A stretch of 64,000 nucleotides of DNA, taken from Alphaproteobacteria bacterium (GTDB lineage Bacteria; Pseudomonadota; Alphaproteobacteria; UBA2136; UBA6156). Positions 24,871-29,103 of this stretch are shown here, in pieces (the first letter of the stretch is position 1; each line of letters starts with the position of its first letter). The notes beneath the pieces are model-generated. The model did not search any database. It was not told the DNA's origin and worked only from the letters and a program-made list of their open reading frames with translations. The stretch is from contig JAIXQG010000001.1 of assembly GCA_027485835.1 (NCBI GenBank), positions 133,902-197,901 on the forward strand, written 5' to 3'. A program made the translations under genes and the position numbers.

Positions 24871-25407
24871 TTATTTGTATTCGAAGGTCAGCATCTCCGG
24901 CGTGATGTCGGGGAATATTGCGTACTGGGCCTTCACCTCAGCATCGCTTGCATAGATGAGATCGGGGGTACCGCGAACGAATTCGACATCTTCGAATTCC
25001 ATCTTGCCGTAGACCGGAAAATGGTCGTGACCTTTCATGCCCTTGTAGACGAGCCTGCGGTACTTCAGCATACCGCTGACGTTGCCGTTGGCGTCGATGT
25101 GGAGCGTGATGACTGGACGCAGGTGTTCGTCGGTGGCGTCGGACAGCCAGTTTGCCGGTGGGCGATCATCTTCATGCAGAATGCACAGGGACTTGTGCTT
25201 GTTGTACTTGTCCCAGCCGCCACTGCCGTGCTCGGTGTAGTCTTCAGTATTGAAAATCTTGATGTGCTCGGCCGAGAGACCAGCAAGTTGCGGGTTTACC
25301 TCGACGAGGATTTCGATCAGTCGCTCGATACCGAGTGAGACGGCTACCGTATCGGTGATGCGGACGTCGGAGATGGGGACGATGAACTTTTTCGGTTCGC
25401 GTGCCAT
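24871..25407 (-). CDS. Hypothetical protein of the GTARG-box group
   Basis: 178 aa, not recognised. The N-terminal segment (FIVPISDVRITDTVAVSLGI) looks like a strand-helix unit; the rest is polar and mixed, with a His/Asp/Trp-containing middle (NTEDYTEHGSGGWDKYNKH). Probably cytoplasmic. The start at 25407 is supported by AAGGA eight bases upstream. The upstream region carries a GTAGG-N6-GTAAG element (25515-25530) also found before two small membrane-protein genes near 44 kb. Confidence 0.65.
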   Translation of the reverse strand: MAREPKKFIVPISDVRITDTVAVSLGIERLIEILVEVNPQLAGLSAEHIKIFNTEDYTEHGSGGWDKYNKHKSLCILHEDDRPPANWLSDATDEHLRPVITLHIDANGNVSGMLKYRRLVYKGMKGHDHFPVYGKMEFEDVEFVRGTPDLIYASDAEVKAQYAIFPDITPEMLTFEYK

Positions 25408-25530: not shown

Positions 25531-25657
25531 AAATTGAAATGTATTCGGTATTTGTTGTTTTTGGTTTTTGTGAGGGAAAACAGTGTTGAGTGTGATGCCT
25601 TGGCTACGGGGGTTGGTTGCGCTTGATAAGAAAGTGATCAGATAGGTGATTTTTTGC

Positions 25658-25685
25658 TTGACAGATTTGTATGCAATGTTATGAA
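25658..25685 (+). promoter_or_regulatory. Probable sigma-70-type promoter of the CsgG-like module
   Basis: TTGACA (25658-25663), a 16-bp spacer, then TATGAA (25680-25685). It lies 124 bp upstream of the first gene and leaves a long structured leader. Confidence 0.5.
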
Positions 25686-25726
25686 GCGGCTTGAATTAAG
25701 TCTTATCTAGCTCACCTGTTCGGCGC

Positions 25727-25787
25727 GCCCCGCGTATTTTGGGGCTGCTGATATCTTTCAACGAGCCGACACATGCCTGTGTTCGGC
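25727..25787 (+). promoter_or_regulatory. Structured 5' leader with two hairpins
   Basis: Hairpin 1 is GCCCC (25727-25731) with GGGGC (25741-25745). Hairpin 2 is GCCGACACA (25765-25773) with TGTGTTCGGC (25778-25787), nine pairs and one bulged T. They sit between the predicted promoter and the ATG at 25809, so they may act on mRNA stability or translation. Confidence 0.45.
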
Positions 25788-25808
25788 GTACCTCGTGGGG
25801 GACCACTC

Positions 25809-26165
25809 ATGAAACTAGTTATTTTGGCGGCTGCTTTGGCCGCTGTTTCGTCTTCGGCTTTGGCTGATGACAGTTGGCGCTCGCCGGGAAAAAGCCTTTA
25901 TGGTGGACCTTCGGGAAATGCCATGTCTCAGGATTTTCAGAATCGCGGCCGGCTCGATGAAGCTTTGCGTGATGGCAAAGCTGGTTATGTCGGCGATACA
26001 ACGATTGTAACCGTGGAAACGGTTGCCGGTGGTTGCATCTCGACCCAGTCGACCAAGGTGGAAGGTGCAACCGACACCGATACCGATTCGAACATCACCT
26101 GCAACAACTCCAACAGTCCTGTGAGCGCCGATACGACTGTCAACATCGGCACTATCAAGAGATAG
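25809..26165 (+). CDS. Secreted protein, possible substrate of the CsgG-like channel
   Basis: 118-aa precursor with a clear Sec signal peptide (KLVILAAALAAVSSSALAD). The mature part is polar, Gly/Asn/Thr/Ser-rich and acidic, with two cysteines (GGCISTQSTK and NITCNN) and a repetitive TDTDTDSN stretch. Its size and composition recall HfaA or curlin-type subunits, but no repeat signature can be proven. ATG 25809 is used since the signal peptide begins there. It sits 10 bp before the CsgG-like gene. Its base composition is atypical for a + strand gene in this window. Confidence 0.75.
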   Translation: MKLVILAAALAAVSSSALADDSWRSPGKSLYGGPSGNAMSQDFQNRGRLDEALRDGKAGYVGDTTIVTVETVAGGCISTQSTKVEGATDTDTDSNITCNNSNSPVSADTTVNIGTIKR

Positions 26166-26174
26166 GAACATGCA

Positions 26175-27095
26175 ATGATCAAGAACATTCTGGTAATGAT
26201 TCTCGTTGCCTGCCTGTCTCTGACTGGCTGCGCAAACGCTCCATCTACCAAGGTGGTATCTCAGGTGAACCTGAACCCGCAGACGGAACAGATTGTTCTG
26301 CCGAGCGAGGACGCGTTGGTCCAATGCTTCGGTGTAACTCCCTGGTCGAGTCCTGATCCGGAAGTTGCCATCAAGGTGCTGAGCATCACTGACGTGAGTG
26401 GTAAAGCCACTTACGGTGATAACGGCACCGGCGCTATGGCCACGCAAGATAGTTCTAGCACCGCAATCGCGGCGTTGGATCTGGCAAGTGGCCCAAGAAG
26501 CCCGATCGTCTCGGTTGATGGAACGGACCTGATGGTTCGTGTCCAGAAAGATGAAATGAATCTGGGTATTCGCACCGTTGCAGACAATCGAGCGGCTCCG
26601 AAAACTGACTACTACTTCACAGGTAGTCTTGTCAGTATCGATTCCGTAATGGCGGCTGTACAGCAGGTCATTTTCTACGGTGTCGGTGGTGGACCGCGTC
26701 AGGAACGTTGGTCGTTCGACATGAATCTTCGTCTCGTTCATGACGATACGCGGGTTTTCAAGTCGACCAGCCTGTTCAATCAATACGTTCAGAATGAAAT
26801 CAAAGGCGTCGTTTCCACCGTTGTTGGTGGGGGCTCTGGCAAAAGCTTGTTGACGGTCGACCTCGAGCAAGTCGTTCGCGGCAAGATGCAAGGCATGATG
26901 CGCCCGATGATTTTTGTCGGCCTTGCCGACCTTCTGTCTTCGCTGCCGGGCGCTCCGCCCACGTGCGTAGCGAACGTGCGGAACTTCCTGAACGGACAAT
27001 CGAAATCTACCAAGCCGTATACCACGGCTTGGAATCCCGGTTTCCCTGCAAACACGAACGTGCTGCAGCGGAAAGAAACAGCGTTGGCCGCTTAA
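26175..27095 (+). CDS. CsgG/HfaB-like outer-membrane secretion lipoprotein
   Basis: 306-aa lipoprotein (lipobox LSLTGC). Segments line up with the CsgG fold: IKVLSITDVSGK (CsgG VYNIQDETGQ), YYFTGSLVSIDSV (MVEGSIIGYES), VIFYGVGGGPRQERWSFDMN followed by LRLV (the transmembrane hairpin and following strand), and a C-terminal helix MMRPMIFVGLADLL. CsgG/HfaB proteins form oligomeric outer-membrane pores that export curli or holdfast-anchor subunits (family knowledge). The gene lies between two small secreted-protein genes on the same strand, as expected for a dedicated export module. No CsgE/F, HfaD or glycan genes are adjacent. The C-terminal 50 residues, after about residue 255, look family-specific. 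Confidence 0.72.
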   Translation: MIKNILVMILVACLSLTGCANAPSTKVVSQVNLNPQTEQIVLPSEDALVQCFGVTPWSSPDPEVAIKVLSITDVSGKATYGDNGTGAMATQDSSSTAIAALDLASGPRSPIVSVDGTDLMVRVQKDEMNLGIRTVADNRAAPKTDYYFTGSLVSIDSVMAAVQQVIFYGVGGGPRQERWSFDMNLRLVHDDTRVFKSTSLFNQYVQNEIKGVVSTVVGGGSGKSLLTVDLEQVVRGKMQGMMRPMIFVGLADLLSSLPGAPPTCVANVRNFLNGQSKSTKPYTTAWNPGFPANTNVLQRKETALAA

Positions 27096-27157
27096 GCCTC
27101 GCTGAAACGCGTGGAAAGCATTCCGCTTATCCACTTAAACCTCAAGGAGAGCATACC

Positions 27158-27622
27158 ATGAAGAAGTTTCTGATGGCTTCGGCCGCTGTTGTTGCGTTCA
27201 TGTCGATCGGCGTCGTCGCGCACGCGGAAGACTCCGACTACGAGCAGGACGTCACCGTCAAGGTCTACACCCCGACCGAATCGCTTACTGGCGTTACCGT
27301 TCGTGCGATCGAACCGGGCGTCAACATCAAGTCGACGGCGGCTGGTGCGACCGGTGTGGGCAGCGGCAAGTTCGTCGGCGTTGACGATCTCGAGTTCGAT
27401 CAGGACATCTATGTCGAATCGGCCGGTGGTTATACGAAGTCCACGACGTACGTCTCGGCCGACTACATCAAGGGCGGCGTCGAAGCTTCGGGTTCGGCCG
27501 ACGGCCAGTTGTTCGGAGCCAATGGTGGCATTGACGTTGCGCTCGACAGCAAGACGATCATTTCTTCCGGCGCCTACGGCGGCCAGGGCAGCGGATCGAT
27601 CGAAGTCTACGGCGACGACTGA
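27158..27622 (+). CDS. Secreted Gly/Ser/Val-rich protein next to the CsgG-like gene
   Basis: 154-aa precursor with a signal peptide (KKFLMASAAVVAFMSIGVVAHA). The mature part is acidic and beta-prone (QDVTVKVYTPTESLTGVTVR, then Gly-rich stretches such as SADGQLFGANGGIDVALDSK), with no cysteine. It is compatible with an exported surface or fibre subunit; no family is recognised. The start ATG 27158 follows AAGGAGAG. Its codons strongly prefer C endings, unlike other + strand genes here. Two terminators follow. Confidence 0.75.
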   Translation: MKKFLMASAAVVAFMSIGVVAHAEDSDYEQDVTVKVYTPTESLTGVTVRAIEPGVNIKSTAAGATGVGSGKFVGVDDLEFDQDIYVESAGGYTKSTTYVSADYIKGGVEASGSADGQLFGANGGIDVALDSKTIISSGAYGGQGSGSIEVYGDD

Positions 27623-27668
27623 TCTTTCTCGATCGGCTCTTCTTTCAAGTATAGCGTATGAAGCTTTT

Positions 27669-27688
27669 GGTCTCCCTTCGGGGAGACC
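27669..27688 (+). terminator. UUCG-tetraloop hairpin
   Basis: GGTCTCCC-TTCG-GGGAGACC, an 8-bp perfect stem with a stable tetraloop, 46 bp after the stop of the secreted-protein gene. The following T content is moderate. Confidence 0.7.
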
Positions 27689-27707: not shown

Positions 27708-27743
27708 AAAAAAGAGAGGCCTTTGGGGCCTCTCTTTTTTTTT
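27708..27743. terminator. Bidirectional terminator between convergent genes
   Basis: A-run, GAGAGGCC (27714-27721), loop TTTGG, GGCCTCTC (27727-27734), then nine Ts. It serves both the secreted-protein gene and accC. Confidence 0.92.
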
Positions 27744-27756
27744 GGTTTTGGCTGCT

Positions 27757-29103
27757 TTAGAGGCGGCCGGTTTGGAGGTAGTGCTCGAGGCTGTGGATGG
27801 TGTACTCGCCTTTAAGGAAGGCGTTGGTAGCCACCAGTTTGCGGTGCAGTGGGATGTTGGTTTTGATACCGCCGACCACGAATTCCTCCAAGGCACGCTT
27901 GAGGCGGGCGACGCATTCTTCTCTGGTAGCGCCGTGGACGATGAGTTTGCCGACTGTGGGGTCGTAGTACGGGGGTACGCTGTAGCCGGGGTAGAGGCAG
28001 CTGTCGACACGCACGCCGGGGCCGCCGGGGGCGAAGTACTCGGTGACCTTACCCGGCGAGGGGTAGAATTTTTCTGGGTCTTCCGCGTTAATGCGGCACT
28101 CGATGCTGTGACCACGCGGGGTGACGCTGTGGATGGGGTAGCGGAGCTTTTCGCCGAAGGCGATGCGGATTTGCTCGGCTACGAGGTCGATGCCGGTCAC
28201 CATTTCGGTTACCGGGTGTTCTACCTGCAGGCGGGTGTTCATTTCGATGAAGTAGAACTCGCCTTTTTCGTACAGGAACTCGAACGTACCGGCGCCTAAG
28301 TAGCCCATGCCTTGGCAGACGCGGGCGACTTGCTCGAAGAGCTTTTCGCGCATCGGGTCTGTCACCGCAGGTGAGGGGGTTTCTTCGATGATCTTTTGGT
28401 GGCGGCGTTGCAGGGAGCAGTCGCGCTCGCCCAAAATGCTGACGTTGCCGTGGCTATCGCAGAGGACTTGGACTTCGACGTGGCGCGGTTGTTCGAGGAA
28501 TTTTTCGAGGTACACGCGGTTGTCGCCAAAGTTGGCTTGGGCCTCGCTCATGGCAATATGGAAGGCTTGGCGTAGGGCTTGGGTGCTGTGTGCGACCTTC
28601 ATACCCTTACCACCGCCGCCGGAGGTGGCTTTGACGATGACGGGGTAGCCGATGCGTTCGGCGACTTCGACCGCTTGTTCGACGTCGTCGAGCACGCCAT
28701 CGGACCCCGGAACGGTGGGGAGGCCGTACTTTTTGACGGTTTGGATGGCGGTGATTTTATCGCCCATGGCGACAATGTGCTCGGGCTTGGGGCCGATGAA
28801 GGTGAAGCCGAGTTTGCCGGTGATTTCGGCGAACTTGGAATTTTCCGACAGGAAGCCGTAGCCGGGGTGGATGGCTTCGGCGTCGGTGACCTCGGCTGCG
28901 CTTAGGATGGCGGGGATATTCAGGTAGCTATCCTTCGCGGCATTGCCGCCGATGCAGACGGATTCGGTCGCCAGTTTGACGTGCAGGGCGGAGGCGTCGG
29001 CCTCGGAGTGCACGGCGACGGTGGAAATGCCCATTTCGCGGCAGGTGCGGTGGATGCGAACCGCAATCTCACCACGGTTGGCGATAAGGATTTTCTTAAA
29101 CAT
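27757..29103 (-). CDS. accC: Acetyl-CoA carboxylase, biotin carboxylase subunit
   Basis: 448-aa ATP-grasp enzyme that carboxylates the biotin on AccB, the first step of fatty-acid synthesis. It shows the N-terminal KILIANRGEIAVRI, the glycine-rich ATP loop ATSGGGGKGMK, the YLEKFLEQPRHVEVQVL segment and the catalytic EMNTRLQVEHPVTE. Full family length. It lies 14 bp downstream of accB in the standard accB-accC operon. Confidence 0.98.
   Translation of the reverse strand: MFKKILIANRGEIAVRIHRTCREMGISTVAVHSEADASALHVKLATESVCIGGNAAKDSYLNIPAILSAAEVTDAEAIHPGYGFLSENSKFAEITGKLGFTFIGPKPEHIVAMGDKITAIQTVKKYGLPTVPGSDGVLDDVEQAVEVAERIGYPVIVKATSGGGGKGMKVAHSTQALRQAFHIAMSEAQANFGDNRVYLEKFLEQPRHVEVQVLCDSHGNVSILGERDCSLQRRHQKIIEETPSPAVTDPMREKLFEQVARVCQGMGYLGAGTFEFLYEKGEFYFIEMNTRLQVEHPVTEMVTGIDLVAEQIRIAFGEKLRYPIHSVTPRGHSIECRINAEDPEKFYPSPGKVTEYFAPGGPGVRVDSCLYPGYSVPPYYDPTVGKLIVHGATREECVARLKRALEEFVVGGIKTNIPLHRKLVATNAFLKGEYTIHSLEHYLQTGRL

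Follow-up and report, generated by a model that had tools for sequence, protein, structure and literature searches.

A divergent CsgG/HfaB-type lipoprotein encoded between two small secreted proteins in an alphaproteobacterium: a probable compact HfaAB-like export cassette

Organization of the locus

The window (the whole stretch of DNA analysed, 64,000 nucleotides of genome G000, a member of family f1) contains three genes in an operon layout, named P0001, P0002, and P0003 in 5′ to 3′ order. The three open reading frames are real, lie on the same strand, and recur in this order in other genomes, in agreement with an earlier note on this DNA, which had described a lipoprotein with a small signal-peptide protein on either side. 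The cassette and its candidate regulatory elements are as follows.

25658..25685, forward strand: possible sigma-70-type promoter read from the sequence (TTGACA at 25658-25663, N16, TATGAA at 25680-25685)
25809..26165, forward strand: P0001, open reading frame call, signal-peptide protein of 118 amino acids, upstream secreted partner in the HfaA position
26175..27095, forward strand: P0002, lipobox lipoprotein of 306 amino acids, predicted by sequence comparison to be a divergent CsgG/HfaB-type pore subunit
27158..27622, forward strand: P0003, open reading frame call, Gly/Ser/Thr/Val-rich signal-peptide protein of 154 amino acids, downstream secreted partner
27669..27688, forward strand: first terminator-like hairpin, from a hairpin scan and folding against shuffled sequences
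27708..27740, no strand assigned: second terminator-like hairpin, symmetric, A/T-flanked, bidirectional, and shared with the convergent accC

The start used for P0001 is at 25809 (MKLVILAAALAAVSSSALA). By eye, a Shine-Dalgarno-like stretch precedes each of the starts at 25809, 26175, and 27158, and Sec signal peptides are recognizable on P0001 and P0003. The intergenic gaps measure 9 bp between P0001 and P0002 and 62 bp between P0002 and P0003. The cassette is flanked by a minus-strand orphan open reading frame (24871-25407) on the 5′ side and by the convergent accC (27757-29103) on the 3′ side. The orphan frame encodes 178 amino acids with no Pfam or NCBIfam match, and it is missing from the corresponding interval of the congener G002.

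The cassette had also been credited with its own promoter, a structured leader, and a double terminator. The TTGACA-N16-TATGAA motif can be read at 25658-25685 and is a plausible promoter for the cassette as judged from its letters, but it was absent from the output of the consensus promoter scan, and the region held 1 promoter-like site against 1.3 in shuffled sequences, which is no excess; the promoter claim thus has a readable motif and no statistical support. The structured leader was not borne out, as the folding of this stretch gave z = -1.1 with 28 of 200 shuffles equally stable, and a comparison with Rfam returned no match up to the gathering score. The double terminator was confirmed: the stretch with the two stems folded with z = -6.6, and none of 200 shuffles was as stable. 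Being symmetric and A/T-flanked, the second hairpin can also serve the convergent accC.

Identity of P0002

P0002 carries a lipobox (LTG-C, residues 16-19), the cysteine of which is invariant in alignments. Direct searches placed it in no family. It did not match Pfam CsgG (PF03783) at the gathering score or the NCBIfam HfaB model NF037935 (equivalog cut-off 300 bits), and the window's own genome contained no CsgG match. Queries with P0002 alone found nothing among genome contigs and plasmids and no useful match in the PDB, and a search of viral contigs gave one partial relative only. A match to the OXA-837 beta-lactamase in the direct family scans (E=3e-5) was set aside, as its score of 23 bits lay far under the cut-off of 575.

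The relationship emerged through intermediates. Among 60 relatives searched, one HfaB-type protein appeared at 1e-6, and profiles pointed onward to the pores of an alphaproteobacterial family, f47. In BLASTP, P0002 aligned with the f47 pore L071 over nearly its full length, including the lipobox, at 27% identity (E=8e-14). L071 is a Pfam CsgG protein at 2e-12 and matched NCBIfam HfaB at 1.3e-22 with 80 bits, which is under the 300-bit cut-off. Both of the f47 pores tested lay over the Pfam CsgG cut-off, whereas P0002 lay under it. Using hhalign, P0002 alone matched f47 with a probability of 96.4%, and the five-member f1 pore family did so with 99.6% (E 4e-24); against the Caulobacter-type HfaB the same f1 family reached 95.5%, and against the Micavibrio-type pores 96.8%. 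Controls with shuffled columns, which cover the f47 and Caulobacter-type comparisons, scored about 20 as against 164 and 65, respectively.

A profile combining P0002 with two f47 pores (A4) found the solved Escherichia coli CsgG in the PDB at 3e-8, and the alignment spans both transmembrane-hairpin regions, the positions of which in CsgG we take from established knowledge. An f1-only profile found CsgG at E=0.18, ranked behind unrelated matches; since this is not significant, the link between P0002 and CsgG rests on the intermediates. An AlphaFold model of P0002 built from four sequences only had a mean pLDDT of 32; its strands (146-158, 175-189, 207-217, and 224-235) follow an order that fits CsgG, in a model whose confidence is nil. 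By sequence homology, P0002 is a divergent CsgG/HfaB-family protein, as the earlier note had assigned it.

Family membership could conceal another function. P0002 could have kept a CsgG-like periplasmic domain while acting as an outer-membrane lipoprotein scaffold or an envelope-stress factor, with the small proteins remaining in the periplasm. Pfam CsgG holds many non-curli paralogues, with only 26% of its matches belonging to curli (PMC3521004), and P0002 is extremely divergent, falls under the CsgG cut-offs, and has a four-residue insertion close to the second transmembrane hairpin. However, the A4 profile aligns both hairpin regions to CsgG, the Gly-rich turn (GVGGG) is kept, and a scaffold with secreted partners would be odd. 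Such a non-pore role is accordingly judged improbable.

Co-occurrence and phylogeny

The three-gene arrangement recurs in related and distant Alphaproteobacteria. Within f1, a small signal-peptide protein, the pore, and a second small signal-peptide protein are found in this layout in four members, namely G001 (of the window's genus), G005, G006, and G010, the downstream partner gene of the last being cut by a contig end. In f47, the pore was found in 17 of 26 genomes; a signal-peptide protein of 118-255 amino acids is encoded downstream of the pore at all 17 loci, and a complete one of 126-148 amino acids upstream at 15, the other two having an upstream fragment or a truncated pore locus. The plasmid pDY25-D of Pacificitalea manganoxidans (L131) shows the same arrangement with longer proteins. 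In each of these settings the secreted genes accompany the pore gene, so that the co-occurrence check set by the earlier note comes out in favour of its reading. The single-sequence search with P0002, which gives no close relative, would be compatible with an orphan lipoprotein lying by chance beside unrelated small exported proteins; against this stand the profile searches and the conservation of the gene order in many genomes. We consider this explanation close to negligible, as the co-occurrence already refutes it.

The phylogenetic tree, though weakened by the very long f1 branches (5.9 for P0002), unites the f1, f47, and Pacificitalea pores in a single clade (100/99) to the exclusion of the Caulobacter-type HfaB and the Micavibrio-type pores.

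Variability of the locus

The pore went undetected in 6 of 11 f1 genomes; several of these genomes are incomplete or fragmented, so that absence of the cassette is established only for G002 at the accC site. This second member of the window's genus has no cassette in the interval between glyA and accC. The interval (L146:7165-8272) is a variable site and holds a GNAT-like gene, recognized by eye, and a small unknown gene. In G001, the cassette adjoins accC as it does in the window, yet identity to the window is only 21% for the pore, against 88% for accC. From these figures and the lack of the cassette in G002, the locus as a whole is an accessory, rapidly changing site in the lineage of the window.

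Within f47, the pores have a median identity of 64%, compared with 32% among the upstream partners and 22% among the downstream ones, which marks the pore as the stable part and the partners as the varying one. Faster evolution of the partners than of the pore is as expected for surface cargo. A tentative extension is that these loci represent an undescribed class of minimal HfaB-type cassettes, widespread and masked by rapid evolution, in which a conserved pore would be combined with hypervariable dedicated surface proteins that are swapped between close species.

The secreted partners

The earlier note stated that the secreted partners match no family, and this is true of Pfam and NCBIfam for both P0001 and P0003; the statement needs qualification for P0001, which is HfaA-like in its position and size and in a core motif that aligns weakly. 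Neither P0001 nor its relatives matched the NCBIfam HfaA model NF037934 (cut-off 50 bits), in a test in which a Caulobacter-type HfaA scored 73 bits. The relatives of P0001 occupy the corresponding position in the four f1 members and have in common with it a Trp close to the N-terminus of the mature protein and a C-terminal core rich in Thr, Asn, and Gly. When the five-member upstream-partner profile was aligned to HfaA with hhalign, the cores were in register and the score was 21.1 as against 15.9 for the best of 40 shuffles, at an hhalign probability of only 5.6%. The HfaA-like character of P0001 is suggestive, a lead and not family membership. Kinship of P0001 with the f47 upstream partners is suggestive at best, as 79 of 2990 shuffles scored equally well against their profile. 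The small Micavibrio proteins were rejected as homologues of P0001, because the real P0001 scored under most of its shuffles.

For P0003, no homologue was detectable beyond the shared position. It gave no signal and no sequence homology with the f47 downstream-partner profile, and no significant similarity to HfaD-type proteins, which are about 220-580 amino acids long as against 154. An AlphaFold model of P0003 as a single sequence was uninformative, with a pLDDT of 33. The Pfam scan found no curlin repeat (PF07012) in P0001 or P0003, and neither protein showed statistically secure homology to known CsgG/HfaB substrates.

Comparison with known systems

One close counterpart is the holdfast anchor HfaA-HfaB-HfaD of Caulobacter crescentus (PMC6707917). 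First, both loci encode a small secreted protein, a CsgG-like lipoprotein, and a further secreted protein around an HfaB-type pore. Second, P0001 has a suggestive HfaA-like core motif. However, C. crescentus HfaB is about 20% identical to P0002 and belongs to a separate clade, and P0003 is much shorter than HfaD and lacks HfaD-type repeats; for the cassette, a link to a polysaccharide would be hypothetical.

These likenesses raise the question of a true holdfast anchor, in which hfaA, hfaB, and a shrunken hfaD would fasten to the outer membrane a polar polysaccharide whose synthesis is encoded at another locus of the genome. Gene order and position match those of hfaA-hfaB-hfaD, the f1 upstream profile is in register with the HfaA core, and the genome has a Wza/Wzc/WbaP-type exopolysaccharide export locus at about 257-264 kb of G000:C1. 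The surrounding segment (L139, G000:C1:255000-270000) encodes a BBP2_2 barrel, a Poly_export/Wza protein, a Wzc-type kinase, a phosphoesterase, and a WbaP-type sugar transferase. However, the first two proteins miss the HfaA and HfaB models, the third is not of HfaD length, and the polysaccharide locus is of a common type, unlinked (about 100 kb off), and also found in relatives with no detected cassette, such as G002. A holdfast role of this kind is rather unlikely.

Compared to curli, P0002 belongs to the CsgG family by profile alignment with E. coli CsgG (PDB 4uv3, 3x2r, and 6l7a), a lipoprotein pore that exports small proteins, as P0002 may do. A CsgG-type pore accompanied by small Gly/Ser/Thr/Asn-rich secreted proteins brings to mind a self-sufficient fibre, with P0003, P0001, or both polymerizing as protein with no polysaccharide. 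By eye, a unit of about 45 residues occurs twice in tandem in the downstream protein of G001 (L137), and curli operons vary widely, with about half of the curli-bearing alphaproteobacterial genera having neither csgE nor csgF (PMC3521004). Against a curli-like fibre, the cassette has no CsgA/B repeats, csgE and csgF do not adjoin it, and the pore is closer to HfaB-type pores than to CsgG. We regard the fibre as possible but somewhat unlikely. The confidences given to fibre and anchor overlap that of the export reading discussed below, of which both are sub-cases.

The f47 cassettes (e.g., L071/L073 and L070/L074) have the same layout and order and similar sizes, and their pores are, with that of pDY25-D, the nearest to P0002; for the flanking secreted proteins of f47 and pDY25-D, homology to P0001 and P0003 could not be detected. 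Micavibrio-type genomes and Vibrio and Photobacterium plasmids (L022, L053, L132, and L133) likewise combine a CsgG/HfaB pore with secreted partners. Unlike the cassette, these loci have the order of pore, HfaD-like protein of 220-580 amino acids, and small protein, and their partners show no detectable similarity to P0003.

Several of these and other HfaB-type loci have features of their own. Genome G032 (L053, L054, and L055) has five HfaB-type pores and a pore fragment, with three of the five in units of pore, HfaD-like protein, and small protein that repeat in tandem. In the Micavibrio metagenome-assembled genome with L022, the pore is accompanied by a 354-residue HfaD-like protein and a 143-residue secreted protein, together with a LuxR-type regulator (by eye) and an opposite-strand small secreted gene. 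The Photobacterium and Vibrio alginolyticus plasmids (L132 and L133) carry an HfaB-type pore with HfaD-like and small secreted genes, and the V. alginolyticus locus adjoins partition genes. At L058:5733-7049, an HfaB-type pore has an apparent C-terminal OmpA peptidoglycan-binding domain, judged by eye, and a 228-residue secreted protein is encoded upstream.

Proposed mechanism and implications

Taken as a whole, the locus is likely to be a compact HfaAB-like export cassette in which the P0002 pore places P0001 and P0003 on the cell surface. In Caulobacter, HfaB is required for the outer-membrane targeting of HfaA and HfaD (PMC6707917); by analogy, P0002 probably provides the channel through which P0001 and P0003 pass the outer membrane. 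In the proposed sequence of events, P0002 would be made as an outer-membrane lipoprotein, and its copies would assemble a CsgG-type ring that includes a beta-barrel. P0001 and P0003, exported by the Sec pathway, would then cross the outer membrane via P0002. Once outside, they would stay attached or polymerize and form a surface anchor or a short fibre. Homology and layout would predict that P0002 forms a pore, that P0001 and P0003 are its cargo and reach the surface, and that the system serves adhesion; for the role of the partners outside the cell, a fibre of protein appears about as likely as an anchor for polysaccharide. The earlier note's wording of a new curli- or holdfast-like system can be accepted in the sense of a variant of the HfaAB kind.

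These results bring a lineage of small-genome Alphaproteobacteria, where database models detect no such system, into the range of CsgG/HfaB-type export. They suggest a minimal two-cargo layout with no HfaD and no adjoining csg accessory genes. To our knowledge, substrate recognition by CsgG-type pores has been little studied outside curli. If the partners are cargo, the f47 cassettes, with their conserved pore and variable partners, would reveal the substrate features that a CsgG-type pore recognizes.
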